From: Hyphomicrobiales bacterium
Lineage (GTDB): Bacteria; Pseudomonadota; Alphaproteobacteria; Rhizobiales; Rhizobiaceae
Direction of reading: 5' to 3'
NCBI GenBank assembly: GCA_021775495.1
Contig: JAJFHT010000253.1
Span: forward strand, 1-40,234
DNA: 40,234 nt
Every line of letters begins with the position of its first letter. Position 1 is the first letter of the stretch. A program made the translations under genes and the position numbers. The notes beneath the pieces were generated by a model. The model saw only the letters and a program-made list of their open reading frames with translations, did no database searches and had not been told where the DNA came from. Shown here in pieces: positions 3,807 through 18,969 of the stretch.

Positions 3807-3827
3807 TCGGCTGTTTTTTGCAGCCGA
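3807..3827 (+). other. Hairpin in leader of yeeE-like gene
   Basis: A perfect 7-bp stem (TCGGCTG at 3807-3813, CAGCCGA at 3821-3827) encloses a loop of six T and one G. Its 3' arm touches the weak Shine-Dalgarno sequence (GAGGT, 3826-3830) of the transporter gene starting at 3839. It may influence translation; the rest of the 168-bp gap holds the palindrome GAATCAGATTC (3736-3746) and no gene. Function is inference only. Confidence 0.4.
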
Positions 3828-3838
3828 GGTAAAATGAC

Positions 3839-4939
3839 ATGGATCTGGTCTGGTTGATCGATTGGGTTGACGAGCCCCTTGCCAAGCTGGTGGTCGGACT
3901 GGCGATAGGGGCCGCATTCGGAATTCTTGCCCAGCGTAGCGCGTTTTGCACGCGCTCTGCGGTCATCGAACTGTTCTCCGGCACGATCGGCAGGCAATTG
4001 CCGCTGTGGCTGGCCGCATTCGCAACCGCAATTGCCGGCATGCAGTTCCTGATCCATTCCGGTGCGATCGATGTCAGCGAAACTCGTTTCTTCTCTTCGC
4101 CTCAAAGCCTGTCCGGCGCCATTGTCGGTGGCGGGTTGTTCGGCCTCGGCATGATCCTCGCACGCGGTTGCGCCAGTCGGCTCCTGGTGCTGGGCGCCGG
4201 TGGCAATCTCAGGGCGCTGTTTTCTGTTGTTCTGCTTGCGGCTACCGTTTTTGCCGCATTGGAGGGTCCGCTCGCTCCGATGCGTTCCGCCATCGCATCG
4301 TCATGGAACACCGGTGCCATTGGCGGGAACGATCTGTTGTTAAGCGTCGGTGCAACGTCATTTGTGGCGGTTGCAGTTGCATTGGCAGGATTATTGGCAG
4401 GTTTGCTGTTTGCCATCAGGCGACAATTGCCTGTTTCCTATATCGTTGGCGGATTGGCGATCGGTGCATTGATCCCGGCGGCCTGGTACCTGTCCTGGTC
4501 ATTGTCGACCCAGGTTTTCGACCCGTTCCAGCCCGACGGGCTGTCTTTCATTCGTCCGTTCAGCGGATCAATTGAACTGCTCGCCAGCGGCGGGTCGCAA
4601 GACCTGTTTTCCATCGATGTCGGTCTGGTGGGCGGTGCAATTGCCGGGGCGTTTGTTGCTGCTATCCTGTTTGGTGACTTCAAGGTCCAGACATTCAAAA
4701 CGGCAGGCAGCGCACCAATTTGGCGTTACGCCACCGGAGCGCTTCTCATGGGCTTTGGCGGCGTTCTTGCAGCCGGCTGCACAATTGGTGCCGGCTTCAC
4801 CGGCGGTTCCGTGCTGGCCATTTCCTCATTGCTGTCGCTATCGTCGATGATCCTTGCCGCCGGCATCTCACATCGTCTGATGGACGCCCGCGTCTCGGCA
4901 CATATTCAGCCGACACCACATCCATTGCCGGCGGAATAG
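3839..4939 (+). CDS. YeeE/YedE (TsuA-like) sulfur-compound transporter
   Basis: Predicted inner-membrane carrier for thiosulfate or another sulfur compound. 366 aa with about nine to ten hydrophobic segments and the three cysteine motifs of the family: FCTRS (Cys37), ARGCASR (Cys111) and AAGCTIG (about residue 315). In the structurally studied thiosulfate transporter TsuA three such cysteines line the path, so conservation here supports transport activity. A weak GAGGT sits about 9 nt before the ATG at 3839. The gene is followed after 165 bp by an exported DsrE protein and faces the sox operon, so a role in sulfur supply or export linked to Sox is likely. A paralogue (soxT) lies at 16702. It could equally be called SoxT; direction of transport is unknown. 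Confidence 0.88.
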   Translation: MDLVWLIDWVDEPLAKLVVGLAIGAAFGILAQRSAFCTRSAVIELFSGTIGRQLPLWLAAFATAIAGMQFLIHSGAIDVSETRFFSSPQSLSGAIVGGGLFGLGMILARGCASRLLVLGAGGNLRALFSVVLLAATVFAALEGPLAPMRSAIASSWNTGAIGGNDLLLSVGATSFVAVAVALAGLLAGLLFAIRRQLPVSYIVGGLAIGALIPAAWYLSWSLSTQVFDPFQPDGLSFIRPFSGSIELLASGGSQDLFSIDVGLVGGAIAGAFVAAILFGDFKVQTFKTAGSAPIWRYATGALLMGFGGVLAAGCTIGAGFTGGSVLAISSLLSLSSMILAAGISHRLMDARVSAHIQPTPHPLPAE

Positions 4940-4965
4940 GAAGCCTCCATCCATTTCAGCAGCAA

Positions 4966-5066
4966 AGTTGCGCAACTGGTTCTGCTGATTGGTGGAACGC
5001 AAGCGGCGGTCGGCGATGGCATCGTCACGAGAAGTTGTCATTGCGCAACCGAACACATCGTATAAT
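4966..5066 (+). promoter_or_regulatory. Candidate promoter/operator region of dsrE-like gene
   Basis: The octamer palindrome TTGCGCAA occurs twice, at 4968-4975 (inside the 12-bp perfect palindrome AGTTGCGCAACT, 4966-4977) and at 5041-5048, exactly 73 bp apart, about seven helical turns. A perfect -10 hexamer TATAAT lies at 5061-5066; TTGTCA (5035-5040) or TTGCGC (5041) could be the -35, though neither spacing is ideal. Two GAAT half-sites (5069-5072 and 5077-5080) follow directly, resembling the motif in the sox gaps. Assignment as promoter and operators is inference. Confidence 0.45.
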
Positions 5067-5104
5067 CTGAATGTGTGAATAAGACAAAGAAACAGGAGGA
5101 AAAC

Positions 5105-5548
5105 ATGAAATTTCTGGTGAGATCGATTCTGACGGTGTTCGCCGCATTGGCGATCATGGTTCCGGCAATTGCTGCCGATGGAGTTCACAAGCTGGTCCTG
5201 CAGATCAGTGACAACAACCCGCAAAAAATGAACACCGTGCTCAATGTGGCGGCAAACGTCTCACGTCACTACACCGATATGGGTGAGGAGATCGATATCA
5301 AGATCGTCGCCTTCAATGCCGGACTGCACATGCTTCGTCCGGATACCTCACCGGTCAAGGACAGGATGATGTCGTTTGGGCAGAGCATGCCGAATGTCGA
5401 GTTTCAGGCTTGCAACAATACCCGCCACGCCATGCAGAAGAAATCCGGCAAGGATGTTCCGCTTTTCGAGTTCGCCGAAGTCGTTCCAGCCGGAGTGGTT
5501 TCGATCATGGAACTTGATGAGGCCGGGTATTCGGTGGTGAGACCGTAA
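5105..5548 (+). CDS. Exported DsrE-family protein (single-cysteine, periplasmic)
   Basis: 147 aa. Residues 1-24 form a clear Sec signal peptide (MKFLVRS, hydrophobic core, AIAAD cleavage region), so the mature protein should be periplasmic. The rest matches the DsrE/DsrF-like fold: a beta strand (KLVLQISDN), a helix with KMNTVLNVAANV, IKIVAFNAGLHML, and the family motif VEFQACNNT with the only cysteine, Cys103. DsrE-type proteins carry sulfur as persulfide on such a cysteine; most known ones are cytoplasmic. ATG 5105 was preferred to 5075 because AGGAGGA ends four nt upstream and the signal peptide then starts normally. It lies between a sulfur transporter and the convergent soxF, so a sulfane-sulfur carrier role is likely but unproven. 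Confidence 0.85.
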   Translation: MKFLVRSILTVFAALAIMVPAIAADGVHKLVLQISDNNPQKMNTVLNVAANVSRHYTDMGEEIDIKIVAFNAGLHMLRPDTSPVKDRMMSFGQSMPNVEFQACNNTRHAMQKKSGKDVPLFEFAEVVPAGVVSIMELDEAGYSVVRP

Positions 5549-5588: not shown

Positions 5589-5624
5589 CCCTGCCTTGAT
5601 GGGGTACTATCCATAGAGGCAGGG
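5589..5624. terminator. Bidirectional rho-independent terminator
   Basis: Perfect 8-bp stem CCCTGCCT (5589-5596) with AGGCAGGG (5617-5624); the 20-nt loop can itself pair ATGG with CCAT. AATTTT follows on the plus strand and a GATTTC-type run on the minus strand. It lies between the convergent dsrE-like gene and soxF and probably ends both transcripts. Confidence 0.8.
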
Positions 5625-5650: not shown

Positions 5651-6916
5651 TTAGCCGAACATATCCGTCGTGATACCTTTGTACCAACCTTCCGATTCCT
5701 CGTAGGTCGCCTTGCGCACAGCCTCGTCTTCACCGGTTTTGGAGATGAACTTGTCGACAACTTCGATCTTTTCAGATCCTGCACCGTAATTGGCGCCGAC
5801 TTTCACCCCGTCATCCGTTGCGATCAGGCTCCAGCAGGTGTTGGAAAAACGCGCCGGAAACACCTTTGATCCGGTCAGCTCGCCGCGGATCGCATTTGCC
5901 GCGACCTTGGCCTGGCTGTTGGCCGAAAAACCTGATTTCGGCATCGCCGCGGCAATGGACGCGTCTCCGAGCACATAGATGTTTGGATCGCCCTTCGCCT
6001 GCATGCTTGCCGGGACTATGGGTGCCCAATCGCCGTCGGTAACCCCCGCCGCCATTGCGATCGAACCGGCCTTTTGCGCCGGCACCACGGACGCCGCGTC
6101 CGCCTTGAAGGTCTCAAGGTCCGTTTCGATTTCCATCGTGTCCGGATTGACGTTCTTGATGCCGCCGTGAATATCCGGTCCCAGCCACTCGATCATATCG
6201 GGATAGTGCGCTTCCCAGCCTTCCTGAAACAGGGCCTGCTTGGAGAATTTCGGCTTGGGATCGACAACGATGATTTTTGCCGACGGATTCTTCTGTTTCA
6301 GTATATGCGCGATCATCGAAATCCGTTCATATGGCCCGGGCGGACAGCGGAACGGATTGGGCGGCGGGACCATGACGAAGGTTCCGCCCTCGCGCATGTT
6401 TTCGACCTGGGATCGGAGTTGCTGAACCTGCGTGCCCGATTTCCAGGCGTGCGGCATTCGGCCCTGGGCTTCGGCCGAGTAACCGGGAACGCTGTCATAT
6501 TTCATGTCAATGCCCGGAGAAAGCACCAGCCTGTCGTAGCTGACCGACGCACCTGATGCGAGCATGATTTTTTTTGCTCCGGCGTCGATGCCGGTAGCCC
6601 AGTCATGCACGACGTTCACGCCATGATCGGCCGCAAGAGTATCATAGCCATGGCCGATTGAAGCATAATCACGGAATCCGCCCAGATAGAGATTGGAAAA
6701 GAAGCAGGTATAGTACCGTTTGCTGGCCTCGATAAGCGTGACGGCGATCTTACCTTTGCTGTCCTTTGCAATATAACGTGCGGCGGTCGCGCCACCGGCA
6801 CCGCCGCCAATCACCACGACCTTCGGCTTGGCCTGGCCAAGGCCGAGAGACGGCATTGCCAGCGTCGCCACACCGGCTCCCGTTGCCGACAGGAAATGTC
6901 TTCTGTTGAGTTTCAT
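5651..6916 (-). CDS. soxF: Flavocytochrome c sulfide dehydrogenase flavoprotein subunit (SoxF / FccB)
   Basis: FAD protein that oxidises sulfide (or persulfide) to sulfane sulfur in the periplasm and passes electrons to a cytochrome c subunit. 421 aa from the chosen start. Residues 1-28 are a Tat signal (NRRHFLS), followed by the dinucleotide-binding motif VVVIGGGAGGATAARY (33-48). FccB signatures are seen: YYTCFFSN (Cys71), NPFRCPPGPYER (Cys191), the VLGDASIAAAMPKSGF flavin region (315-330) and FSNTCWSL (Cys361). ATG 6916 is preferred over an upstream in-frame codon because GGGAGG precedes it by a few bases and the Tat signal then begins normally. It follows the diheme cytochrome gene by 25 bp, its likely electron acceptor. 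Covalent FAD attachment and the redox cysteine pair cannot be assigned with certainty here. Confidence 0.93.
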   Translation of the reverse strand: MKLNRRHFLSATGAGVATLAMPSLGLGQAKPKVVVIGGGAGGATAARYIAKDSKGKIAVTLIEASKRYYTCFFSNLYLGGFRDYASIGHGYDTLAADHGVNVVHDWATGIDAGAKKIMLASGASVSYDRLVLSPGIDMKYDSVPGYSAEAQGRMPHAWKSGTQVQQLRSQVENMREGGTFVMVPPPNPFRCPPGPYERISMIAHILKQKNPSAKIIVVDPKPKFSKQALFQEGWEAHYPDMIEWLGPDIHGGIKNVNPDTMEIETDLETFKADAASVVPAQKAGSIAMAAGVTDGDWAPIVPASMQAKGDPNIYVLGDASIAAAMPKSGFSANSQAKVAANAIRGELTGSKVFPARFSNTCWSLIATDDGVKVGANYGAGSEKIEVVDKFISKTGEDEAVRKATYEESEGWYKGITTDMFG

Positions 6917-6941
6917 CGTTTCCTCCCTTGGTTGAGACATG

Positions 6942-7706
6942 TCATTTGTGCTTGAGCGTTGCGAAATAGGCGGCAAGCGCCGCCATTTCTTCGTCGCCGA
7001 GACGGCTCGTCACTGTCTGCATGACCGGATTTGCCCGCAGTTTGTTTTTGTATTCGACCAGAGCGTGGATGAAATTCTCCTTCGGCCATCCGGTGATCGA
7101 AGGGATTCCGTCCTCCTTTCCGGAGATCTGGTGGCAGGTGACACATTCGCCGGCGATATATTCGCCATATTCCGGGTCGCCCTCCAATGCCGAGGCCGAA
7201 GCGCCAAGAAGTTCGGTTTTGTCGCTGTTGGCCATGCTTCCGGCCTTGCCATCGGCAGAAAACCCGATCAGCCAGGCGACCAGCTCCGCCAATTGATCGG
7301 GGTCCTTCATGCCGGCAAAACTCATGCGTGTACCTTTCAGGAACGCGCGTGGTTTCCGCAGATATTCGGTCAATGTCTCCGCGTTCCAGCGCAATCCGCC
7401 CCCGCCGGCCTTTTTGACGGCCCTGGAATATTTGTAGCGGTCAACGGTCCCAGCCGTTCGCCCGTCCAGGCCGTTCAGATGCGGTCCGACCTTGTTGCGG
7501 GCATTTGTACCGATCTCGTGGCACACCGCGCACTTCTTGAACAGGTCATGAGCCCCGGCGGCGTCCTCTGCCAGCACCATCGGCGCGGGCAGTCCGATCC
7601 CTCCAGCCAGAAAGACAAGGAATGACAGGAACTTATGAATCGGCCTTGGGCCGGTTTTTTCGAGCGGTCGCATCTGATCAGTCGACCGGGCCCGCACCTT
7701 CTCCAT
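6942..7706 (-). CDS. soxE: Diheme cytochrome c, SoxE / FccA-like
   Basis: Exported electron carrier with two c-type heme sites: CAVCH (59-63) and CVTCH (188-192) in a 254-aa product. Residues about 24-47 form the signal peptide. The first heme domain closely resembles the first domain of the adjacent SoxD (shared KKC..CH, ARNKVGP, LNGL/LNDLFGR and KPR.F.KGT.M.F.G motifs), pointing to a tandem duplication. The second domain resembles the FccA-type cytochrome. The start is uncertain: ATG 7706 has GGAGG at good spacing but overlaps soxD by 29 bp; ATG 7673 would start four bp after the soxD stop with no clear ribosome site. Position directly before soxF makes it the likely cytochrome subunit of the sulfide dehydrogenase. 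Confidence 0.85.
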   Translation of the reverse strand: MEKVRARSTDQMRPLEKTGPRPIHKFLSFLVFLAGGIGLPAPMVLAEDAAGAHDLFKKCAVCHEIGTNARNKVGPHLNGLDGRTAGTVDRYKYSRAVKKAGGGGLRWNAETLTEYLRKPRAFLKGTRMSFAGMKDPDQLAELVAWLIGFSADGKAGSMANSDKTELLGASASALEGDPEYGEYIAGECVTCHQISGKEDGIPSITGWPKENFIHALVEYKNKLRANPVMQTVTSRLGDEEMAALAAYFATLKHK

Positions 7707-8775
7707 CATCACCCTCCGGCGTCACGTCCAGCACCCGGGCCCGCATGATGACTTTCACCGGCCCAGGCTTGCAGTCGCTCATGCAGGCCTCGGAATTTTT
7801 TGCGTAGTGCGGTTCATCCTTGCGTGTATCGGCGGTGAAATTGGCTTCGTTCGGCAGCCGGATGTCAGAGAAATTGTCCCGCGACAGCTCAAATTCCTCG
7901 TCGGTGACGATATCGTTCACGTAAAGCAGATAGGCGGTCAGGGCGTAGACATCGTCATCACTCAGCGATCGGGCATCGCCGAATGGCATGGCCCGGCGGA
8001 CATAGTCGAACACGGTGGAAAGATATGGCCAATAGGAGCCTATGGTTTTGACCGGGCGGTCTTCCTTCAAAGTGTCGTGGCCTCCCGCCAGTACCGGCCA
8101 GCGGTCAACGCCTTCGCCAAAATCTCCGTGGCAGGACGCACAATTCTCGGCGAAGAGCGGCTCGCCGTCTGCCACGGTTCCGCGTCCCGGTGGCAGGCCG
8201 GCGCCATCAGCCCTGATGTCGATGTCCCAGGCATTGACTTCTTCGGGCAGCGCCTTGCGGCCAAGGTGAAACACGCCGTGTTGTGGAATTGGAAGATTCC
8301 GCGACGACGGCGCGGCTGTTACCGTCGTAGCAGCCTTCTCCGGCTGATCATCGGTTTTTGTTTTCGCGGCATCAGCCGTTTCGGAACCGGTCGAGAATGT
8401 CTTCAGGTAGGCAATGATATTGTTTCGGTCTTTTTCTTTCTTCAAACCGCCAAACGCCATCTTTGTGCCTTTGATGAACTTGCGCGGTTTGGTGATCAGT
8501 TCGGCGACCGTGTCATCGGTCCACACAAGTCCTTTCTCGGCAGCCGCCTTCATGGCCTTCGAATATTTGAACTTTTCAATTGATCCGGCTGACCGGCCGA
8601 ACAGATCGTTCAGTTGCGGCCCGACCTTGTTCCTGGCATCCGGGCCAACAGCATGGCAGGCAACACATTTCTTGAACAGCTTTTTGCCGGCCCCGACATC
8701 CTGCGCCAGTGCAGGTGCAATCCCGGCCGACATCACGACGGCGGCCACAACCGCAAGATTACGAAACTTCGACAT
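7678..8775 (-). CDS. soxD: SoxD, diheme cytochrome subunit of sulfane dehydrogenase
   Basis: Electron-accepting partner of SoxC in the sulfane dehydrogenase that oxidises SoxY-bound sulfane sulfur by six electrons. 365 aa: signal peptide 1-24 (ending ALAQD), first cytochrome domain with CVACH (37-41) and candidate Met ligand in KGTKMAF (106), an Ala/Thr-rich linker (about 128-158), then the SoxD-specific part and second heme CASCH (212-216) in the motif FAENCASCHGDFGEG. ATG 8775 is chosen because GGGAG lies eight nt upstream; a GTG three codons earlier is less likely. The start overlaps the end of soxC by 17 bp, as expected for coupled subunits. Confidence 0.93.
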   Translation of the reverse strand: MSKFRNLAVVAAVVMSAGIAPALAQDVGAGKKLFKKCVACHAVGPDARNKVGPQLNDLFGRSAGSIEKFKYSKAMKAAAEKGLVWTDDTVAELITKPRKFIKGTKMAFGGLKKEKDRNNIIAYLKTFSTGSETADAAKTKTDDQPEKAATTVTAAPSSRNLPIPQHGVFHLGRKALPEEVNAWDIDIRADGAGLPPGRGTVADGEPLFAENCASCHGDFGEGVDRWPVLAGGHDTLKEDRPVKTIGSYWPYLSTVFDYVRRAMPFGDARSLSDDDVYALTAYLLYVNDIVTDEEFELSRDNFSDIRLPNEANFTADTRKDEPHYAKNSEACMSDCKPGPVKVIMRARVLDVTPEGDDGEGAGPVD

Positions 8776-10054
8776 TTTCCGCACTCCCGTCAGCTTTCAC
8801 GTGCCAGGTCTGAATCCCGTTATTGTGGTAAATCGAGTTCTGGCCGCGCGCAGCGCGCAACTCGTTTTTGGTTGGCTGAATATTCCCGGCCTCGTCAATT
8901 GCACGCGATTGCAGCAGCAACTCGGAGCCGTCCCAATTGAAATCGTGATAGAAACGGTGGAGCGATTTCGACAGGCTCGGACCATCCAGACGCGCAGTTT
9001 CCCAGTTGCGACCGCCATCGATCGAGACATCGACACGTTTGATCTTGCCATGCCCGGACCAGGCGACGCCGGTCACCACCGTCTGGCCTTTGCCATGGGT
9101 GATCGGCGCCTGCGGGCTCGGATTTGTAATCACCGACTTGACGTCCATGGTCCAGGTAAAGCGGCGCGCCTTGCCGTCCTCCATGAGGTCCGTGTATTTC
9201 GAAGTCTCTTCGCGCATCTGCCAGGGCTGGTCGCCGATCTCGATACGGCGAAGCCACTTGACCCACATATTACCTTCCCAGCCGGGAACGACGAGACGGA
9301 CCGGATAGCCTTGTTCCGGGCGCAGTGCTTCGCCGTTCATCTTGAAGGCGACAAGGCAATCGTCGAGCGCCTTTTCAAGCGGAATGGAGCGGGTCATGCC
9401 TGAAGCGTCCGCGCCCTCGGGGAGTATCCACTTGCCGCCTGACTTGATGCCAGCCTCGTTGAGAATATGTTTGAGCGGCACGCCCGTATACATGACATTG
9501 TGCACCATGCCGTGGGTGTACTGGCAGCCATTCAATTGCGCGCCGCGCCATTCCATTCCCGAATTTGCGGCGCATTCCAGGAAGTAGACCCGGTTTTCGC
9601 GCGGAAACCGCTTCAGGTCTTCCATGGTGAAGACCAGCGGCGTGTCGACCATGCCGTTAATCATCAACCGGTGTTGCGCGGGATCAATATCGGCAATGCC
9701 GCCGTGATGGCGCTCGAAACAAAGGCCGTTCGGTGTGATGATGCCATCAAGCTCGTGCAGGGGGGTGAAATTGACCGAGGATTTCGGGTCGGCCGTGAGC
9801 CAGGAGACACTGCGCCGAACGACCTCTTTCTCATGTTCTGATGGAAAACCGTAGGGACGTTCATCGACGCCATCGCCGAGATAGCGGTTCCAGTCCTGGA
9901 TCTTGGTTATGGCGGGATCCGGGGCGGCTGCGGCCGCTTGCCGTCCACCGATCGCCAGTGCCGCAGCGGCACCGCTTGCGGCGAGACCGCCTGCAAGCAA
10001 TTTACGCCGTGCGGGATTGCTGATCTCAGTTTCCGGTTTCTTCCGGTTGTTCAC
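8759..10054 (-). CDS. soxC: SoxC, molybdenum-cofactor subunit of sulfane dehydrogenase
   Basis: Sulfite-oxidase-fold molybdoenzyme that, with SoxD, oxidises the sulfane sulfur left on SoxY after SoxB action; its presence predicts complete thiosulfate oxidation to sulfate rather than sulfur deposition. 431 aa. Residues 1-45 carry a Tat signal (ARRKLLAGG then an Ala-rich core). The molybdenum-ligating cysteine is Cys161 in YFLECAANSGMEW, followed by the family's MVHNVMYTGVPL and the VRLVVPGWEGNMWVKWL region. Translation starts at GTG 10054, eight nt after GGAGG; an in-frame ATG alternative is not available because the nearby ATG hits a stop. It is separated from soxB by 124 bp holding a possible internal promoter. 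Confidence 0.96.
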   Translation of the reverse strand: MNNRKKPETEISNPARRKLLAGGLAASGAAAALAIGGRQAAAAAPDPAITKIQDWNRYLGDGVDERPYGFPSEHEKEVVRRSVSWLTADPKSSVNFTPLHELDGIITPNGLCFERHHGGIADIDPAQHRLMINGMVDTPLVFTMEDLKRFPRENRVYFLECAANSGMEWRGAQLNGCQYTHGMVHNVMYTGVPLKHILNEAGIKSGGKWILPEGADASGMTRSIPLEKALDDCLVAFKMNGEALRPEQGYPVRLVVPGWEGNMWVKWLRRIEIGDQPWQMREETSKYTDLMEDGKARRFTWTMDVKSVITNPSPQAPITHGKGQTVVTGVAWSGHGKIKRVDVSIDGGRNWETARLDGPSLSKSLHRFYHDFNWDGSELLLQSRAIDEAGNIQPTKNELRAARGQNSIYHNNGIQTWHVKADGSAENVEVS

Positions 10055-10178
10055 CGTCGCATCCTCCCAGATGGGTTTAGATAAACATTCAAATATTCAT
10101 ATATATCAACATGAGATCGGGTGCAATCGGTAACAGGTTAAAGAAAGTCCCGCATTGCCGTTCGTTTTTTCCGAAGTA
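10055..10178 (-). promoter_or_regulatory. soxB-soxC gap with candidate operator / internal promoter
   Basis: An AT-rich patch (10081-10106) in otherwise GC-rich DNA contains ACATTCAAATATTC (10085-10098) followed by ATATATAT. The ATTC half-site is repeated with an 8-bp period (10087 and 10095). The same ACATTC-type motif occurs in the soxS-soxV and soxW-soxX gaps. It may give a separate SoxR-controlled start for soxCDEF. Inference from motif similarity only. Confidence 0.45.
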
Positions 10179-11882
10179 TCAGATGCCGACAACCTTGACG
10201 GCGCGATTTTCCGGCGCCGAAACCGTTCCCAGATTGCTGATATGCGTTTCCATCAGGTCATAGATCGCCGGACCTTCGACATTTTCATTGATCGAGGCCC
10301 AGCCACCGACCACATAGGATTTTCCCGCTTCGATCGGTTCGCCGGTTTTCAGCAGCATCATGTCCGAAATCCGGCTGCCGATATCCTGTTTGGGCGCGCA
10401 GGTGTAGCTCATGCCGCCGACCCGGACCATGTCGCCACCTTGCTGGAAAAACGGATCCTTGTTGAAGAGATTGTCGCAGACGTCTTCCAGGATATCCTTC
10501 AGCTGCTGGCCGGTGAACTCCAGTCGGTAGACACTGGGATAATTCATCGATGTCTGCGTGTAGAGGTCGTCGATGGTGATGTCTTGCCCGGGCAGCAGCG
10601 TTGTTCCCCAGCGGAACCCCGGGCTCAGCGATATCTCCGTGTCGCGCTCGGTTAGGATTCCCTGGCAGATCAGATCATCCCAGCTGCCGTTGAAGTTGCC
10701 CCGGCGGTAGAGCAGTCCTTCAGACTTGCCGATGACCCGGGTAGCTTCGCTTTCATACGGCGCCCGGACTTCGGCGATCTTTGCCGCCATTTCGGCGTCC
10801 GGTTCGATGACATCGGCAAAAATCGGAATGAGGTTTGACGAGAAGCCCGTCACCTTGCCGCCGCTGACCTCCAGATCGATACGGCCGAGATATTTTCCGT
10901 GCGACCCTGACGACAACAGCAGCGTGTCGTTTATCTCGATCGCCCGCGGAACGGCATCGTGGGTGTGGCCGGTCAGAATGACATCAATGCCGTTGACGAC
11001 GGTTGCCAGTTTCTGGTCGACATCGAAGCCGTCATGCGACAGCAGCACCACCACTTCGGCACCTTCGTCACGGGCCTTGTCGACATTGGTCTGAAGCACT
11101 TCAGGCCGGATGCCGAATGACCAGTCGGGAATCATCCAGCGCGGATTGGCAATCGGTGTATAGGGCATCGCCTGGCCGATCACCGCAATTTTCACACCGC
11201 CTTTCTCAAAATAAGCGGTGCTTTCGAAGACCGGTTCATCCCACTCATTGTCGAATATGTTGGAGGCCAGAAACGGATATCCCATATCCTCGACGATCTC
11301 GAGGACACGGTCCGCGCCGAAGGTGAACTCCCAATGGCCGACCATCGCATCGGGTTTGAGAAGTTTCATGCAATCGACCATGTCCTGGCCGTTGGTTTTC
11401 AAGGACGTATAGGAGCCCTGCCAAGTGTCGCCGCCATCGAGGAACAGCACCTTGTCCTCGCCGCGTTCGGCGCGGATCGCCTTGACCAGCGTCGCCGTCC
11501 GGTCAAGGCCGCCTAGCTTTCCGTAGCTGCGGGCAAGATTGACGTAATCGACCATCGTATGGGCGTAGGCGAGGGGGGTGCCGGCTTCGATATCGAAATG
11601 CGACAGGAATTCCTCGCCGACCAGATGTGGGGGAATACCTTCAAAATTGCCGACCCCGATATTGGTGTCCGGCGGCCGGAAATAGACTGGATTCAATTGA
11701 CCGTGAATATCGGTCAGATGAAGAAGCGTGATCTGGCCTTTCGAATCGAAGCGCAGCAGATCGTCCTGTGAGAGCTTTTGCTGTGCCAGCGCGCGGGTGA
11801 GGCTGCCGCCGCTCCCGGCAGACAAACCTGCGGTCAGACCGGCGACCGCCCCGAACTGCAAGAACTCACGTCGCGAAACCAT
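10179..11882 (-). CDS. soxB: SoxB, thiosulfohydrolase
   Basis: Periplasmic dimanganese enzyme that hydrolyses the sulfone group from SoxY-cysteine S-thiosulfonate and related adducts, releasing sulfate. 567 aa, the usual SoxB length. N-terminal Tat signal (SRREFLQFGAV, ending near residue 34). Metallophosphoesterase (5'-nucleotidase-like) motifs are in order: HLTDIHGQ, FLDGGDTWQG, the SoxB-diagnostic GHWEFTFG, LLSHDGFD and LTGHTHD. The C-terminal nucleotidase-type domain follows (about 385-560). ATG 11882 has a GAGGA element about five nt upstream. Lies 128 bp after soxA on the same strand; that gap shows no gene. Confidence 0.97.
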   Translation of the reverse strand: MVSRREFLQFGAVAGLTAGLSAGSGGSLTRALAQQKLSQDDLLRFDSKGQITLLHLTDIHGQLNPVYFRPPDTNIGVGNFEGIPPHLVGEEFLSHFDIEAGTPLAYAHTMVDYVNLARSYGKLGGLDRTATLVKAIRAERGEDKVLFLDGGDTWQGSYTSLKTNGQDMVDCMKLLKPDAMVGHWEFTFGADRVLEIVEDMGYPFLASNIFDNEWDEPVFESTAYFEKGGVKIAVIGQAMPYTPIANPRWMIPDWSFGIRPEVLQTNVDKARDEGAEVVVLLSHDGFDVDQKLATVVNGIDVILTGHTHDAVPRAIEINDTLLLSSGSHGKYLGRIDLEVSGGKVTGFSSNLIPIFADVIEPDAEMAAKIAEVRAPYESEATRVIGKSEGLLYRRGNFNGSWDDLICQGILTERDTEISLSPGFRWGTTLLPGQDITIDDLYTQTSMNYPSVYRLEFTGQQLKDILEDVCDNLFNKDPFFQQGGDMVRVGGMSYTCAPKQDIGSRISDMMLLKTGEPIEAGKSYVVGGWASINENVEGPAIYDLMETHISNLGTVSAPENRAVKVVGI

Positions 11883-12010
11883 AATTGTCCTCGTATCAAA
11901 GGATGACCTTATCCATCCGGGCGGAATCAGGAATCCCGCCCGTCAAATCGTTTCATGTTGCCTTCGGTTGGCGTGGCTACACCAGCGTCCAAAGCCGGGT
12001 CTTGTTGCGT

Positions 12011-12868
12011 TCAGTTCCGGACCGACGGAACTTCCACCGACAATCCCTTGCCGCGCGAGGCGACATAGAGTTCCAGAGCGATGAACTCGTCCGAACCGCG
12101 TTTGAACGGTGTCGCACGAATGTTCTGCATGCAGCCCTTGAACCGACGATGGATCGATCCGAGACCGCCCCATTTCAGCCGGTAAACCGGAAATCCGTTG
12201 ATATGGCCCTGGCTCAGATGGTCGGCCCGGATCATCTTGCCGTAATTGTTTTCATGGCAATGGGCACATGACATGTCGAGCTGTCCGACGCGGGTGTAAT
12301 AGAGTTCCTTGCCTTTTTCCCAGACCGAGGCCATGGGGCCACCGGTTTCGACAGTCACCGGCATGCCGCGCGATTGCAGCCCGATCAACGCGGTCATGTT
12401 CAGCATCTCCTGTGCCTCCCATTTCCAGGCTTTCGCTCCCATCCGCTCGGTACGACATTCGTTGATGATGTGCTCCAGCGTCTCGGGTTTGCTCTTGGCT
12501 TCGTCCCAGCGTGGCAGGTTGGGGCGCAGGCCCTTGAAATCTGACACATCCGCATGACAATCGGCACAGGCTTTGCCCTCCGATCCATCCACCATTGCGA
12601 ACTGATCGATTGCCTGTTCAACCGCCACCATGCCGGGATTTTCGAAATCATCGGTTTGCAGAGACTGGGTCTCGCTCGCCCTGAAACGCCAGCCTGAATA
12701 GAGATGTTCGAGTGGCGAGTCTGCGGGCGCCTTGACATCCGTTACAATCGTCTCGCCTTCAATCGCCAGGCTGTTTTCATCCGGATCCCCGGCACTATGT
12801 GAAGCCAGTCCGATCGTCAGTGCAAACGCCCCTGCGATCACGGCAAGTTTTTTTCCGGTTCTATGCAT
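12011..12868 (-). CDS. soxA: SoxA, diheme cytochrome c subunit of SoxXA
   Basis: With SoxX forms the c-type cytochrome that oxidatively couples thiosulfate to the SoxY cysteine. 285 aa from ATG 12868, chosen because AGGAGG lies four nt upstream and a signal peptide (about 1-26) follows; an upstream in-frame start would add 14 unlikely residues. Two heme sites are present, CADCH (101-105) and CAHCH (201-205), so this is the diheme type. The heme-ligand/active-site cysteine is Cys246 in HRRFKGCMQNIRA, the position known to carry a persulfide in characterised SoxA. It lies 47 bp downstream of soxZ on the minus strand. Confidence 0.96.
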   Translation of the reverse strand: MHRTGKKLAVIAGAFALTIGLASHSAGDPDENSLAIEGETIVTDVKAPADSPLEHLYSGWRFRASETQSLQTDDFENPGMVAVEQAIDQFAMVDGSEGKACADCHADVSDFKGLRPNLPRWDEAKSKPETLEHIINECRTERMGAKAWKWEAQEMLNMTALIGLQSRGMPVTVETGGPMASVWEKGKELYYTRVGQLDMSCAHCHENNYGKMIRADHLSQGHINGFPVYRLKWGGLGSIHRRFKGCMQNIRATPFKRGSDEFIALELYVASRGKGLSVEVPSVRN

Positions 12869-12915
12869 ATGTCCTCCTCCCGATGGTGCGCCGACGGCGC
12901 TTCCATCCAAATCGC

Positions 12916-13239
12916 TTAGCCGACGGTGATCTTCTTCTCAGTTGTGTATTCCGATCCGTCATCGTCGACCCAGAGAAACTTGAACGTGCCGCTCTCATTC
13001 ACCTTGACGCGAAATTCCAGATAGGGATTGGCCGAGACCGCCGGATCGATATCCGCAGAAAACACCTCGGTTCCGTTGAAGGTCGCGGCAAATCTGTTGA
13101 TGATTTTCCGCGGAATCTTCTCACCTTTTTTGTTCTTGCGCTGGCCCGATTCCATCTTGTGGCTGATCAGCGTCTTGATGGTGATGATGTCACCGGCTTT
13201 GGCCTTTTTAGGGACCTTTACACGGGGTTTTGAAGCCAT
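12916..13239 (-). CDS. soxZ: SoxZ, sulfur carrier complex subunit
   Basis: Partner of SoxY in the periplasmic SoxYZ carrier on which all Sox intermediates are bound. 107 aa with no signal peptide, as known for SoxZ, which is exported together with Tat-targeted SoxY. Family motifs include the Lys-rich start (KPRVKVPKKAKAG), LISHKMESGQRK, PRKIINRF, the NPYLEFRVKVNESG strand and FKWVDDDG-like LWVDDDGSEYT. The start is ATG 13239 with AGGAG upstream. It follows soxY by 19 bp. Confidence 0.97.
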   Translation of the reverse strand: MASKPRVKVPKKAKAGDIITIKTLISHKMESGQRKNKKGEKIPRKIINRFAATFNGTEVFSADIDPAVSANPYLEFRVKVNESGTFKFLWVDDDGSEYTTEKKITVG

Positions 13240-13258
13240 TTCATTTGTCTCCTGTCAA

Positions 13259-13714
13259 TCAGCCGCCGCAGCCGCCGATGGTCACCTTGACCTGGTTCTT
13301 CGCCATATGGACGGAACCGTCGCTCATTTTTGCCACCGCGATGACATTCTGCGTTTTCGCCAGCCGGATGCGGGTCTTGGCCGTTGCAACACCGCTTGCC
13401 GCCGTGAAATTGAAGGTGATGACCTCCGGATTGGGGTTGCCGTCCGCAAGCACCATGACCGATTTCACGTGGTTGTCTTCTGTCATCGGGCTGTCGACCT
13501 CGACCGAGATCGGCACAGTATTGCCGTTTTCGGCGATTTCAGGCGTTGTCAGGCTGACCTGGCCTTCGCCGATCTCTGCACCCTCGGCGAATGCCTTGAG
13601 TGCTGCGTCGATCTCTTCCGCGCTGGCATGGGCACGGTTGATCCGTGAACCGAACACGGCAAACAACGCGCCAGCTGTCCCGAGCGCCATTGCCTTTCTT
13701 CTGGTGATTTTCAT
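13259..13714 (-). CDS. soxY: SoxY, sulfur-carrier subunit with C-terminal GGCGG
   Basis: Covalent carrier of sulfur intermediates. 151 aa; residues 1-31 form a Tat signal (TRRKAMALGTAG) and the protein ends in the diagnostic GGCGG, with Cys149 as the swinging-arm attachment site. ATG 13714 is chosen over a codon 21 nt upstream because a GAGG element precedes it and the Tat motif begins normally; the upstream codon would overlap the end of soxX. Sits between soxX and soxZ in the canonical XYZ order. Confidence 0.97.
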   Translation of the reverse strand: MKITRRKAMALGTAGALFAVFGSRINRAHASAEEIDAALKAFAEGAEIGEGQVSLTTPEIAENGNTVPISVEVDSPMTEDNHVKSVMVLADGNPNPEVITFNFTAASGVATAKTRIRLAKTQNVIAVAKMSDGSVHMAKNQVKVTIGGCGG

Positions 13715-13734
13715 GGAATCGCCTCGCATGTGCA

Positions 13735-14205
13735 TTATTCCTCTTTCAGAGTCTTGAGATAGGCCAACACGTCCTCGACCTGTTCCGCCGACAGGATCGT
13801 CTTGCCGTCAAACTTGTCCATTGTCCGCGCCCCGTTTTTCAACCGGTAGAACGACGGCATTATGGTATCTTCGCTGAGTGCTATTTTTGAATTGATCAGG
13901 ATCGCCCGCAATTCCGGTTCCTCCCAGCGATCGGCGACTCCGTCCAGCGTCGGGCCGACCTCGCCATGAAACGGCTGCTCGGACAGGTCCTTGTTCATGT
14001 GGCAGGCAAGGCAATTGCCTTGTTTCCGATTGGCAAAGACCTTGCGACCGTTCTCCGGGTTGCCGGCAGATCCCGTAAGGGATTTGGCAACCTCACCGTC
14101 ATCGATCATCACGGCATCGGGCAGGACCACTTCGGCAGTTGCATAAGGTGCGGTGATCGCCAGCATGCCTGCCACGAGCGAAAGCGCAGCCAGTTTCTTG
14201 GTCAA
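13735..14205 (-). CDS. soxX: SoxX, monoheme cytochrome c subunit of SoxXA
   Basis: Takes electrons from SoxA during thiosulfate conjugation to SoxY. 156 aa; signal peptide 1-24 (ending ATAEV), one heme site CLACH (65-69) and a candidate Met axial ligand in DTIMPSFYR near residue 115. Translation appears to begin at TTG 14205: AGGAGG sits five nt upstream and no ATG or GTG in frame would keep the signal peptide, so a rare start codon may lower the amount of the first gene of the XYZA block. Preceded by a 142-bp gap with hairpins and a candidate operator. Confidence 0.95.
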   Translation of the reverse strand: MTKKLAALSLVAGMLAITAPYATAEVVLPDAVMIDDGEVAKSLTGSAGNPENGRKVFANRKQGNCLACHMNKDLSEQPFHGEVGPTLDGVADRWEEPELRAILINSKIALSEDTIMPSFYRLKNGARTMDKFDGKTILSAEQVEDVLAYLKTLKEE

Positions 14206-14347
14206 TTCTTCCTCCTGATTTTTCTTAATCGGCGCAAAAAACGGCGCCGACCTCCCCTTTCGGGGACGCTAAAGCGGAATCAATTCACAATCAATAGATT
14301 TATTGTAATTTTTGAATGTATCCAGCTTCGACTGACCGCGAGGCGCT
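14206..14347 (-). promoter_or_regulatory. soxW-soxX gap: candidate operator, promoter and leader hairpins
   Basis: No gene. An AT-rich patch holds the inverted repeat CAATA-GATT-TATTG (14292-14305) and, overlapping it, ATTG-N8-GAAT (14302-14317), one mismatch from the ATTC-N8-GAAT pattern reported for SqrR. Read on the minus strand it gives ACATTCAAA, identical over nine bases to the soxC-upstream site. Downstream toward soxX are two hairpins: TCGGCGC/GCGCCGA (14229-14250, 8-nt loop) and CCCC-TTTC-GGGG (14254-14265). Published work on a related sox cluster places SoxR binding in this gap; the exact site here is inference. Confidence 0.5.
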
Positions 14348-14932
14348 TCAATCGGTGTTTTCCTGTCCTGCATCGCTGCGCTCGCGTATCCGGCGCGCGT
14401 GGTATTGTTGGAAGCCCTCGTCTCCCGAGTAGCCTTTCTCGTTGACCCAGTTGAACATGTCCAGAAACGTTCCCTTGTGGAATGCCCCCGGCATGGCGGC
14501 GACGGCCGACTGCCGTGCGTTCTGCCCATCGACCGGAGCTTCGGGCATGAACAGGATCGTCGGAGTGAACAACACGCCCCATTTGCGCGCCGCGGTTTTT
14601 TCGGTCAGTTCCTCGCCATCGGAATCGATGACCTCCTCGTCGCCGTACAGATTGTACTGCACCACCACAAAATTGTCCCTGATGAAGTCGCGCACCTGTG
14701 GATCGGTCAGCACCTTTTCGTGGACTTCCCTGCAGTAGATGCAGCCGCGTTGCTCAAATATCAGGGCCAGTCGTTTGCCCTGTTCCTCGGCCGCGACAAT
14801 GTCCTCGGCAATGTCGCGAAAGGTGATGGTGAACCAGTCCTGCTTGTGCAGCCCGTCCTCGCCGATTTCCGCTCCGATGGCCGGGATGGCAACAATGCTG
14901 AGCAGCAGAGAAACGATGAATACACGGATCAT
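14348..14932 (-). CDS. soxW: SoxW, periplasmic thioredoxin
   Basis: Thiol-disulfide protein kept reduced by SoxV and thought to keep SoxYZ or SoxS active in the periplasm. 194 aa; signal peptide 1-20 (ending AIGAE), thioredoxin fold with the redox motif GCIYC (Cys64, Cys67) and the cis-proline context FTPTILF. The C-terminal tail (about 165-194) is charged and probably flexible. Lies 9 bp downstream of soxV, its predicted electron donor. Confidence 0.9.
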   Translation of the reverse strand: MIRVFIVSLLLSIVAIPAIGAEIGEDGLHKQDWFTITFRDIAEDIVAAEEQGKRLALIFEQRGCIYCREVHEKVLTDPQVRDFIRDNFVVVQYNLYGDEEVIDSDGEELTEKTAARKWGVLFTPTILFMPEAPVDGQNARQSAVAAMPGAFHKGTFLDMFNWVNEKGYSGDEGFQQYHARRIRERSDAGQENTD

Positions 14933-14941
14933 GATGGCCTC

Positions 14942-15676
14942 CTATCCTATTGTGGCAAATCCCGGGAACGTGTCCAGCAACCATTGTGCGATGTAGGACA
15001 TCGAACCCGTGATGAAGAGAATTCCGGTAACAATCAGCAGCAGACCCATGGCGATTTCGATCTTGCGCATATGCCGTTTGAACCGGCTGGCAAATCCCAG
15101 GAACCGGCCGGCAAAGACCGCAGCCAGCATGAATGGAATGCCGATGCCGAGCGAATAGACCGCCAGCAGCATCGCGCCGCGCAGAGCCGTTCCCTCGGCG
15201 CCGGCAACGAACAGAATGGCCGCCAGCACCGGCCCGACACAAGGAGTCCATCCGAACGCGAAGGCCAGCCCCATCACATAGGCGCCGGCATACCCGACAT
15301 TGTTGTTTTGCACGTCGAATCGGGCTTCGCGATAGAGCAGGCCAATGCGGAACAGACCGACAAAATGCAACCCCATCACGATGATGATGACGCCTGCGAT
15401 AATTGCCAGCGTATCGAAATATTGCGCCACGGTCTGGCCGATGACACTGGCCGTGGCGCCCAGCGCAACAAAGACCGAAGTAAATCCCAGAACGAAGAAC
15501 AGCGATGACAGAATGATCCGCCGCGCCATGCCCGGTGCCAGATCCTCGTCACCGAGCTCGGAAAAACTGATACCGGCAAGATAAGCAATATAGGGCGGGA
15601 CAATCGGCAGCACACAGGGCGAGATAAAGGAGAGCAGCCCGGCAAGAAGTGCCGCGCCGATACTGACATCAAGCAT
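14942..15676 (-). CDS. soxV: SoxV, CcdA/DsbD-type membrane thiol transporter
   Basis: Inner-membrane protein that moves reducing equivalents from cytoplasmic thioredoxin to the periplasm for SoxW and SoxS. 244 aa with six hydrophobic segments and the two conserved cysteine-proline motifs of CcdA: SFISPCVLP (Cys21) and GWTPCVGP. First gene of the minus-strand sox operon; it is transcribed divergently from soxS. A general CcdA for cytochrome maturation is the alternative, but the location beside soxW and soxS makes SoxV much more likely. Confidence 0.92.
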   Translation of the reverse strand: MLDVSIGAALLAGLLSFISPCVLPIVPPYIAYLAGISFSELGDEDLAPGMARRIILSSLFFVLGFTSVFVALGATASVIGQTVAQYFDTLAIIAGVIIIVMGLHFVGLFRIGLLYREARFDVQNNNVGYAGAYVMGLAFAFGWTPCVGPVLAAILFVAGAEGTALRGAMLLAVYSLGIGIPFMLAAVFAGRFLGFASRFKRHMRKIEIAMGLLLIVTGILFITGSMSYIAQWLLDTFPGFATIG

Positions 15677-15801
15677 TCCCGCTCCTCACCTTGATGCGGC
15701 TTGTACACTCGGCACGTTCCGCAAATAATCGTGCTGGAAAACATTCGCTATTTGCTATATGTATGGTGCAGCTTGCCTGTTTGGCAATGGTCGATGGGGA
15801 A
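15677..15801. promoter_or_regulatory. Divergent soxV-soxS control region with candidate SoxR operator
   Basis: Contains the perfect inverted repeat GCAAATA (15721-15727) / TATTTGC (15749-15755), centres 28 bp apart, and the ACATTC element (15741-15746) that recurs upstream of soxX and soxC. It should carry promoters for both transcripts; no consensus -35/-10 pair stands out. Published SoxR of a related species binds the corresponding gap, which supports but does not prove the site. Confidence 0.5.
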
Positions 15802-16197
15802 ATGAGTTTGAATTGGCTTAAACACAAGGCCTGCAATATCGCGCTTTTGACATCGCTGTTTTTTGCCGCGGCAACACCCATGTCCTTTGCAGCGGAATTG
15901 CTGATGCTTGAGCGCGAGGGCTGCGAGTGGTGCCAGAGATGGCATGCCGAAATCGGCCCGATCTATCCGAAAACCGAGGAAGCCCGGATCGCGCCGTTGA
16001 CGCTTGTCGATATCGACGATCCATGGCCCGAGCGACTGGCTGGAATACGGCGCGAGGTTTTCACGCCAACGTTTGTCCTGGTGGAGGATGGGGTCGAAGT
16101 GGGTCGGATCAGGGGCTATACCGGTGATGAATTTTTCTGGTTCCTGATAGGCGAAATGATCGACAAACTGCCGCAGACCGACAATCCTTCCGGCTGA
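15802..16197 (+). CDS. soxS: SoxS, regulatory periplasmic thioredoxin
   Basis: Thioredoxin-like protein that in Paracoccus reactivates SoxYZ by reducing a mixed disulfide. 131 aa from ATG 15802; signal peptide 1-30 (ending SFAAE), redox motif EGCEWC (Cys41, Cys44) and a cis-proline region FTPTFVL. Earlier in-frame starts (15691, 15763, 15787) exist, but they would put the divergent operator inside the gene and add residues before the signal peptide; GGGGA just before 15802 supports the later start. Followed by soxR after 41 bp. Confidence 0.88.
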   Translation: MSLNWLKHKACNIALLTSLFFAAATPMSFAAELLMLEREGCEWCQRWHAEIGPIYPKTEEARIAPLTLVDIDDPWPERLAGIRREVFTPTFVLVEDGVEVGRIRGYTGDEFFWFLIGEMIDKLPQTDNPSG

Positions 16198-16238: not shown

Positions 16239-16586
16239 ATGGCCCTTCCAAAATTATCCGCTGAAACGACACCGGAGCAGATGCTCGATCTGTTCGAACA
16301 GGCCCGCAAGGCGAGCGACCTGTTGAAGGCGCTCTCGCATGAGACGCGCCTGCTGATCCTTTGCCTGCTGACCGAAGGGGAAAAATCCGTTTCGGAACTG
16401 GAAGAGATCATGTCGATGCCGCAGGCTGCAGTCTCGCAGCAGCTGGCGCGCTTGCGTTTCGACAGGCTGGTGACAACCCGGCGCGATGGACGGATGATCT
16501 ACTACCGGATCTCGAACGACGAAGTGACCAATATTGTCGGGCAACTCTACGAGATGTTCTGCACGCCGGTTCGTCAGGCTGACTAG
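16239..16586 (+). CDS. soxR: SoxR, ArsR-family repressor with persulfide-sensor cysteine pair
   Basis: DNA-binding repressor expected to control the sox promoters in response to sulfur compounds. 115 aa, all winged helix: helix-turn-helix about residues 48-72 (SVSELEEIMSMPQAAVSQQLARL), wing near 80-90 (RRDGRMIYYRI). Only two cysteines, Cys42 (LILCLL) and Cys108 (MFCTPV), almost exactly matching Cys41/Cys107 of the SqrR sulfide sensor; the BigR/YgaV branch has the same pair. In those proteins a polysulfide bridge between the cysteines releases DNA. It is sandwiched between soxS and soxT, probably cotranscribed and autoregulated through the soxS-soxV gap. The ribosome site is weak. Confidence 0.92.
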   Translation: MALPKLSAETTPEQMLDLFEQARKASDLLKALSHETRLLILCLLTEGEKSVSELEEIMSMPQAAVSQQLARLRFDRLVTTRRDGRMIYYRISNDEVTNIVGQLYEMFCTPVRQAD

Positions 16587-16701: not shown

Positions 16702-17775
16702 ATGGAGGCGGCACAGGTCGTTCTGCCTGCTGCCGGATTGGCGGCGGGGACGGTGCTTGGATTTGTAGCCCGGCGCAATTTTTTCTGCACGCTCTCAGCG
16801 CTGGAACAGCACTGGTACGGCAACAATTCAAACGGACTGAGAAGCTGGGTACTGGCCGCGGTCGTTGCGGCCATTCTGACACAGACAATGATAGCGGCCG
16901 GGCTTGCCGACACCAGCTCCAGCTTTTATCTGACCACCTCGTTTTCCTGGCTCGGTGCCATCGTCGGTGGCCTTGCTTTCGGTTTCGGAATGGCGCTGGT
17001 TGGAACCTGCGGTTATGGCGCACTCGTAAGGCTCGGTGGAGGCAGCCTGAAAAGCCTTATGGCCGTGCTTGTTCTAGGCATAACTGCCCTGTCGACCCAA
17101 CGCGGCCTGCTTGGCCTCGGCCGCGTCAATATTAGTGATCAGTTCCAACTGGATTTTTCGCTAGCCGGTGACCAGTCGATACCATCCCTTGTGAATGCGG
17201 TCTCTTCGGTCAATCTATCCGCTGTAACGATCGTTGTACTGCTGGCTGTTCCGCTGATCTGGATTTTTCGCGACCGTGCCTTTCGGACCGATCGCCGCGG
17301 GATCGTCACGGCGCTTGTCGTCGGATGCGTAGTTGCCTTCGGATGGTTCGCCACTTCGCGCTTGGCCGGAACATCCTTTGTCCCGATACAGGTGGAATCG
17401 GCCAGTTTTGTCGTGCCCCTGGCCGACGTGATCCTCCATTTCGCGGCCTTTACCGGTACGGGACCGGATTACGGTGTCGGAATGGTATTTGGCACCGTCT
17501 TCGGATCAGCGCTGGCGGCGCGGATGGCAGATAATGTCCGTTGGGAGGCCTGTGATGATGCACGCGAACTCAGCCGCCACATCATCGGCGCCGCGCTGAT
17601 GGGATTTGGCGGCGTGCTCGCGCTCGGCTGTACCATTGGTCAGGGCATCAGCGCCGCCTCACTGTTGGCGGTGTCGGTACCCGTCACCATGATCTCGATC
17701 GGCTTCGGCGCGCGCATGGGGCTGGCTTTTTTGCTTGAGGGCTCGGCGATGGCGCCGTTCAGAAAGTTCAGTTGA
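16702..17775 (+). CDS. soxT: SoxT, YeeE/YedE-family sulfur-compound transporter
   Basis: Polytopic inner-membrane protein, 357 aa, of the same family as the gene at 3839 but clearly diverged from it. Conserved cysteine motifs: NFFCTLS (Cys29), GTCGYGA (Cys103) and ALGCTIGQG (about residue 312). Third gene of soxSRT; 115 bp separate it from soxR, with a small hairpin (CGCG around an A-rich loop near 16667-16681) and GGAGG upstream of the ATG. In related bacteria the soxT product is proposed to move thiosulfate or pass a signal to SoxR; substrate and direction remain open. Its 3' end lies 13 bp from the convergent metallohydrolase gene. Confidence 0.87.
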   Translation: MEAAQVVLPAAGLAAGTVLGFVARRNFFCTLSALEQHWYGNNSNGLRSWVLAAVVAAILTQTMIAAGLADTSSSFYLTTSFSWLGAIVGGLAFGFGMALVGTCGYGALVRLGGGSLKSLMAVLVLGITALSTQRGLLGLGRVNISDQFQLDFSLAGDQSIPSLVNAVSSVNLSAVTIVVLLAVPLIWIFRDRAFRTDRRGIVTALVVGCVVAFGWFATSRLAGTSFVPIQVESASFVVPLADVILHFAAFTGTGPDYGVGMVFGTVFGSALAARMADNVRWEACDDARELSRHIIGAALMGFGGVLALGCTIGQGISAASLLAVSVPVTMISIGFGARMGLAFLLEGSAMAPFRKFS

Positions 17776-18724: not shown

Positions 18725-18969
18725 ATCTTGTCTCCGATTGGTGCCGCCGATGTGCCCGCCGCACACTACACAACACATATATTTTTTTCTATATATTTTC
18801 AAACACTCAGCACTTGTTTCCATTTGAACTCGTTGATCGATGTCTCAATTGAGACGGGCCGTTGCTGCATCGGCAATCCAGTGACCGCTGACAAATCCAT
18901 CCGGCTTGGCTAAAAGAAGTCGAAGCAGAGCCGTCCCGGTGACCAACCGGGATCGTCGGGAAGGGACCC

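Follow-up and report, generated by a model that had tools for sequence, protein, structure and literature searches.

A DsrE-fold protein with a signal-like N-terminus recurs in sox clusters and may carry periplasmic sulfane sulfur

The window analyzed here, a whole stretch of 40,234 nucleotides from a Hyphomicrobiales bacterium (contig JAJFHT010000253.1), contains a sox cluster that is complete and lies on the minus strand (5651-15676). Its low-coordinate end has a gene for a soxF-type flavoprotein (5651-6916; only generic flavoprotein models matched, none of them reaching the cut-off, and the assignment is from place and relatives) and a gene for a soxE-type dihaem cytochrome c (6942-7712; PF00034 in two stretches). 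Open reading frames and homologues then identify soxD (7678-8784) and soxC (8759-10054), soxB (10179-11882), soxA, soxZ, soxY and soxX (12011-14205), and soxW and soxV (14348-15676). The opposite end of the cluster is occupied by plus-strand genes in soxS-R-T order, namely soxS (15691-16197, start probably at 15802; recognized by homologues, without a Pfam match), a soxR-like gene for an ArsR-family regulator (16239-16586; PF01022, E 6.9e-13) and a SoxT1-type YeeE transporter gene (16702-17775; PF04143, E 2.9e-52). Beyond the latter lies a gene for a SoxH-like MBL-fold hydrolase (17789-18823, minus strand; PF00753), which has relatives close to the sox clusters of Labrenzia/Roseibium and Planktomarina. 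An ArsP-type permease gene (25520-26602, plus strand; PF03773) shows no visible link to sox. At the soxF end there are two further plus-strand genes, which open reading frames and translations place where the preliminary description had put them: a YeeE/YedE-family transporter gene (3839-4939) and, 165 bases downstream, a DsrE-like gene (5105-5548) convergent with soxF. At the bounds used, the nine further genomes sampled from the family of the window (f1) gave neither a soxB nor a DsrE match, and the sox region may therefore have been acquired.

The transporter, of 366 amino acids, had been called TsuA-like. Its family membership is clear, since its length is in the expected range of about 330-370 residues, PF04143 matches residues 33-341 over positions 1-308 of the 310 in the model (E 1.5e-44), and it has exactly three cysteines (Cys37, Cys111 and Cys314), as many as are described for TsuA and SoxT proteins (PMC11582611). 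However, its closest kin belong to another named group. In the same paper, the YeeE protein encoded in soxSRT order is named SoxT1 and a second YeeE flanking sox is named SoxT2. We used the second YeeE genes of the Paracoccus denitrificans (L081) and Ruegeria (L084) loci, where the sox genes are flanked by two YeeE genes as in the window, as SoxT2 reference points in a tree of 23 YeeE proteins. Open frames entered the tree from 250 codons upwards, and the Ciceribacter YeeE, which is broken into two frames, is represented by one piece. The window protein fell into a starred clade of six (100/100) beside those of locus L003, P. denitrificans, Ruegeria, Ciceribacter and a Sulfitobacter plasmid, and the YeeE gene at 16702 fell outside this clade; E. 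coli TsuA was on a long branch of unsure position. Because of this clade and the position flanking sox, at the end opposite soxS-R-T1, the gene at 3839-4939 is by sequence and place a SoxT2-type gene of a known kind, with a predicted transport function. The Sulfitobacter member adjoins cbb3 oxidase and nirK genes, and no sox gene is annotated in its 37-kb stretch, which is counter-evidence to the clade being exclusive to sox. In P. denitrificans, MBL-fold/soxH-like genes lie where the window has the DsrE gene before soxF. A perfect 7-bp inverted repeat (TCGGCTG-TTTTTTG-CAGCCGA, 3807-3827) is located about 11 bases 5' of the SoxT2 start codon.

For the DsrE gene, the ATG at 5105, which has AGGAGG upstream, was preferred as the start over an in-frame GTG at 5075. 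The product has 147 amino acids and begins with MKFLVRSILTVFAALAIMVPAIAADG, in which n, h and c regions can be distinguished as in a Sec signal peptide (predicted at about residues 1-23/24). It contains a single cysteine, Cys103. Both the Sec signal and the single cysteine thus agree with the preliminary description. A Pfam search with this protein returned no family, PF02635 being without a match even at E 1, although PF02635 did match 14 of the 22 sequences in its alignment (at 0.01). Using phmmer, we found the archaeal protein MTH1491 (1L1S) at 4.2e-6, with similarity over residues 43-147 and ACNNT aligned on ACSNT. An AlphaFold2 model made from 14 sequences (pLDDT 81, pTM 0.70) was closest in fold to MTH1491 (Z 16.3), with other DsrE-like proteins at Z 11-14, chain C of DsrEFH (2HY5) at Z 12.3 and chain A of TusBCD (2D1P) at Z 11.6; the next unrelated row scored far lower, at 7.7. 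The predicted structure thus assigns the 5105-5548 product to the DsrE fold.

In the model, Cys103 is located at the end of a strand that is followed by a helix. Only N51, C103, G130 and G141 are invariant in the 22-sequence alignment, which reaches down to 24% identity. In the wider set, every one of the 79 rows has one or more cysteines among its final 125 residues, and 72 rows have the motif C-x-[NI]-[TS]; the seven rows lacking it include two that are cut and one that is badly composed. The window protein also passes a permissive signal-peptide heuristic, as do 74 of the 79 rows; among the controls, FkpA passes it, and so do two of nine E. coli proteins that we took to be cytoplasmic. The five misses comprise the cut rows L027 and L058, the badly composed L070, L021, and L048, the last of which looks signal-like by eye. 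Judged from these N-termini, export looks like a family trait of this DsrE branch.

This result qualifies the view that an exported DsrE protein is an exception. DsrEFH and TusBCD proteins act in the cytoplasm, and compared with them the view holds; within the present branch it does not. These sulfurtransferases share the fold of the window protein at 9-12% identity and have partner subunits, whereas tblastn with E. coli TusB, TusC and TusD found no match in the window at E 1, a search that a diverged partner could escape. The active-site cysteine of TusD corresponds to Cys78, and hhalign comparison of the profiles of the window protein and E. coli TusD gave no alignment, so that a match of Cys103 to the active-site cysteine of TusD/DsrE is at most putative; by eye, Cys103 stands in a strand-Cys-helix arrangement. 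MTH1491 shares fold, sequence similarity and a cysteine in register with the window protein, but its solved chain has 113 residues and is aligned from residue 3, so that there is no room for a signal peptide. DsrE3A of Metallosphaera cuprina, which works with TusA, is not known to be exported, unlike the window protein with its predicted signal. DsrE3A carries oxidised sulfur as Cys-S-thiosulfonate (PMC4175335). The active-site cysteine of DsrE is given as Cys78 (PMC13047784), and the TusA-DsrEFH relay is placed in the cytoplasm in a source that also presents a proposed DsrEFH type II relay (PMC13293266).

The DsrE gene had also been described as having its own TATAAT and as ending at a terminator shared with soxF. 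TATAAT is indeed present at 5061-5066, but our promoter scan lists no site there, that is, no TTGACA-like hexamer 16-18 bases upstream, and the evidence for a promoter at this position is thus suggestive at most. TATAAT is enclosed by an exact inverted repeat, ACACAT-N12-ATGTGT (5053-5076), which occurs once in the window; the pattern was chosen post hoc, and the repeat is a possible operator or -10 region of the DsrE gene. Between the stop codons of the convergent DsrE and soxF genes the sequence 5589-5624 can form a strong hairpin (about -24 kcal/mol; z -4.2 on the plus and -4.7 on the minus strand). It may be a weak bidirectional terminator, although it has weak U tracts and is absent from the output of the terminator scan. 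A shared operator of the form ATTC-N8-GAAT was rejected, because 13 matches with at most one mismatch were found against 22 expected by chance.

We analyzed the co-occurrence of the DsrE gene with soxB in two samples. Among 249 genomes of the order, 36 have the DsrE gene, 88 have soxB and 33 have both (Fisher 3e-14); among 385 genomes of the class, the corresponding numbers are 19, 39 and 16 (Fisher 4e-15). These figures ignore the relatedness of the genomes, and the two counts are not independent, because genomes G000 and G361 are in both samples and loci L043 and L006 are one contig obtained via two collections. The DsrE gene occurs without soxB in three of its 36 order genomes and three of its 19 class genomes. 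For comparisons within the order, we used 80 soxB genomes, leaving out seven with partial soxB (G400, G409, G430, G454, G477, G521 and G594) and G584, which is 74% complete; three of these eight (G400, G409 and G477) have the DsrE gene. It was missing at E 1e-10 from 50 of the 80, and is therefore not essential to Sox.

Next to this overall association, we considered a tie to one Sox module, and rejected it, since SoxC was found in 18 of 30 DsrE-positive versus 35 of 50 DsrE-negative genomes, which is not significant. The differences were also not significant for a SoxF-like gene (25/30 versus 43/50) or a T2-like YeeE (13/30 versus 24/50). When only the close DsrE branch of the window is considered, a T2-like YeeE is found in nine of 10 genomes versus 28 of 70 (p 0.005, uncorrected, over five families), and SoxC in nine of 10 versus 44 of 70 (p 0.15). 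The bounds were about 1e-150 for SoxC (search at 1e-100), 1e-45 for T2-like YeeE and E 1e-60 for the close branch, and all three were fixed after the lists had been seen.

The DsrE gene is also linked physically to sox. Of 13 relatives obtained by contig search, 11 are in sox clusters, all on the soxCD strand, and 10 of these are the next recognized gene after soxD; the other two of the 13 are on contigs shorter than 6 kb. Of the 16 class genomes with both genes, 11 have DsrE no more than 10 kb from a sox gene. In those of the order, it is within 20 kb of sox in at least 15 of 33, a lower bound because it was obtained from soxB coordinates and fetched loci of about 10 kb on each side. DsrE is on a contig other than that of soxB in 16 of the remaining 18 order genomes and more than 250 kb away in two (G463 and G525). 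Left out were the loci of G381 (class), where DsrE has two internal stops and is 98 kb away from soxB, and of G477 (order). We then mapped linkage within 10 kb onto a DsrE tree with 79 rows from 75 loci, 36 of them sox-linked; no row was removed for length, so that the tree includes the cut rows L027 and L058, two rows for L070, and the long second copy of L037. Linkage requires 14 changes on this tree, at least eight of them on well-supported (starred) branches. Shuffled labels required 26 changes on average, and none of 500 shufflings was as low as 14. Sox linkage is thus clustered on the tree and has also been gained or lost repeatedly, and the changes on starred branches indicate that it does not reflect a single inherited cluster. 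Recurrence beside sox in other genomes, on which the preliminary description had staked its proposal, is therefore found by co-occurrence, linkage and tree alike.

The position within the cluster varies. DsrE follows soxD in L004, L006-L015, L040 and L043, follows soxB in L031, L037, L053 and L073-L076, lies beside soxW/soxV in L028-L030, and is convergent with soxF in the window, L022 and L023. In all, it abuts soxEF or soxF in the window, L004, L022, L023 and L040. On the Methylosinus plasmid pOB3b1 (L037), soxZ-soxB-DsrE-DsrE-DUF302 are on one strand. Tandem pairs are found here (5950-6831) and in L053 (9777-10730), directly after soxB, and in L057 (9326-10288), after a YeeE gene; the members of each pair come from different tree branches. 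The expected YeeE neighbour is rare, in that a YeeE gene is directly beside DsrE in only three of 75 loci, namely the window, L003 (convergent) and L057, where one YeeE gene is upstream on the same strand and one is convergent, neither belonging to the SoxT2 clade of the window gene. For this reason, we rejected YeeE-DsrE as a fixed two-gene unit.

DUF302 genes were considered as obligate partners. They adjoin DsrE in nine of the 13 relatives (L003 and L007-L014 among the loci concerned) and in L063 and L037 (6861-7439), but the window has no DUF302-like stretch, a single match being at chance level (E 0.98), and the idea was rejected. DUF302 has been noted in other sox operons (PMC5037610), and in Ruegeria (L084) a soxF-like gene is followed by DUF302 (14274-14708) and 5-aminolevulinate synthase. 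By eye, the non-sox DsrE relatives in L019, L020 and L021 are preceded, about 1-2 kb upstream, by a possible TAXI/TRAP-type periplasmic receptor gene, and a small, exported-looking GlcG/HbpS-like protein is encoded 1.8 kb from DsrE in L002 (2097-2627) and directly before it in L016 (9288-9788).

Based on these results, we propose that the 5105-5548 product is a periplasmic, single-cysteine DsrE-fold carrier of sulfane sulfur (as persulfide or thiosulfonate) for Sox, a reading to which we give an even chance. Its computed basis is the predicted fold, the signal-like N-terminus, the conserved cysteine, the co-occurrence and linkage with sox, and the SoxT2 kinship of the neighbour; the persulfide chemistry, the donors and the acceptors are what we infer from it. 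The protein would be exported by Sec to the periplasm, where Cys103 would accept sulfane sulfur, either from SoxYZ or from polysulfide made by SoxEF, and would pass it back to SoxYZ/SoxCD for oxidation. Alternatively, the sulfur might be delivered at the entrance of a SoxT transporter, to be imported or to signal to SoxR. The preliminary description was thus right in its observation and half right in its interpretation, since the partner appears to be Sox and not YeeE.

It had proposed that the exported DsrE takes sulfur from SoxEF products and hands it to the adjacent SoxT2 for import. Such a relay is possible but not favoured, and we think it rather unlikely. It is consistent with the adjacency of the SoxT2, DsrE and soxF genes in the window, with the four other loci where DsrE abuts soxEF or soxF, with L057, where a YeeE gene lies directly before two DsrE genes on the same strand beside sox, and with SoxT1A of Hyphomicrobium denitrificans, for which sulfur delivery into the cytoplasm has been demonstrated (PMC11582611). 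However, across all branches DsrE tracks neither the SoxF-like gene nor T2-like YeeE, YeeE is seldom its neighbour, and the L057 transporters are outside the T2 clade. The link to SoxF products is therefore not supported, although DsrE abuts soxEF in some loci, and the transport idea is kept alive, without being favoured, by the co-occurrence of the close branch with T2-like YeeE. In addition, no gene for a cytoplasmic acceptor is adjacent, the sole TusA above the family cut-off being on another contig (C400). A Sox system with soxCD carries out full oxidation in the periplasm under the known scheme, and since the window has soxCD, import would be unnecessary.

A signalling accessory outside the oxidative flux, in which the carrier would load SoxT1 or SoxT2 and thereby let SoxR sense sulfane sulfur in the periplasm, appears improbable to us. 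The cluster does hold soxR and two SoxT genes, and SoxT1B acts in SoxR signalling, with SoxS proposed as a possible periplasmic donor (PMC11582611), but 75 of the 80 order soxB genomes have YeeE (1e-20) and just 30 have the DsrE gene. We hold it equally improbable that the protein is a scavenger that mops up periplasmic polysulfide or persulfide and shields cytochromes and thiol enzymes with no directed transfer. Exported-looking copies outside sox clusters and the tandem copies in L037, L053 and L057 would suit this role, whereas the strong co-occurrence with soxB and the repeated placement in sox clusters are more in keeping with a part of the pathway. Finally, the gene could be sox-associated with no part in sulfur transfer, through small-molecule binding, SoxCD/cytochrome assembly or hitchhiking. 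Not every DsrE fold is a proven sulfur carrier, and the closest relative with a solved structure, MTH1491, bears the title of a protein of unknown function; against this stand the conserved cysteine in a DsrE fold and the sulfur-oxidation genes alongside, and we regard this explanation as very improbable.

Related genes have been encountered before. In two Sulfitobacter strains, soxB and soxC have a 'DsrE family protein' gene, orf2, between them, DUF302 and YeeE genes lie between soxF and soxH in several clusters, and the DsrE, DUF302 and YeeE genes are called genes of unknown function there (PMC11034169). YeeE also occurs together with TusA and DsrE-like proteins in the YTD cluster (PMC13293266, PMC13047784). 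In the open-licence literature, we found no paper on a DsrE protein described as exported, periplasmic or extracytoplasmic, either by phrase search or among the matches listed, and reports elsewhere are possible.

The route of periplasmic sulfane sulfur from Sox into the cytoplasm has been called "still a mystery" (PMC10451225), and SoxS and DsbA are discussed as possible periplasmic donors to SoxT (PMC11582611). It is conceivable, though we consider it unlikely, that the whole extracytoplasmic DsrE branch, which spans many families of the class, is the missing periplasmic Sox carrier, leading from SoxYZ/SoxEF to SoxT as DsrEFH/TusA do inside. While the function of the DsrE protein is putative, the family-wide pattern is more interesting than a single oddity. 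Because the same kind of gene recurs in the sox clusters of other bacteria, the DsrE protein may be an unrecognized sulfur carrier of Sox, and its recurrence there with a predicted signal peptide makes it a concrete candidate, with a single residue as the target for mutation.
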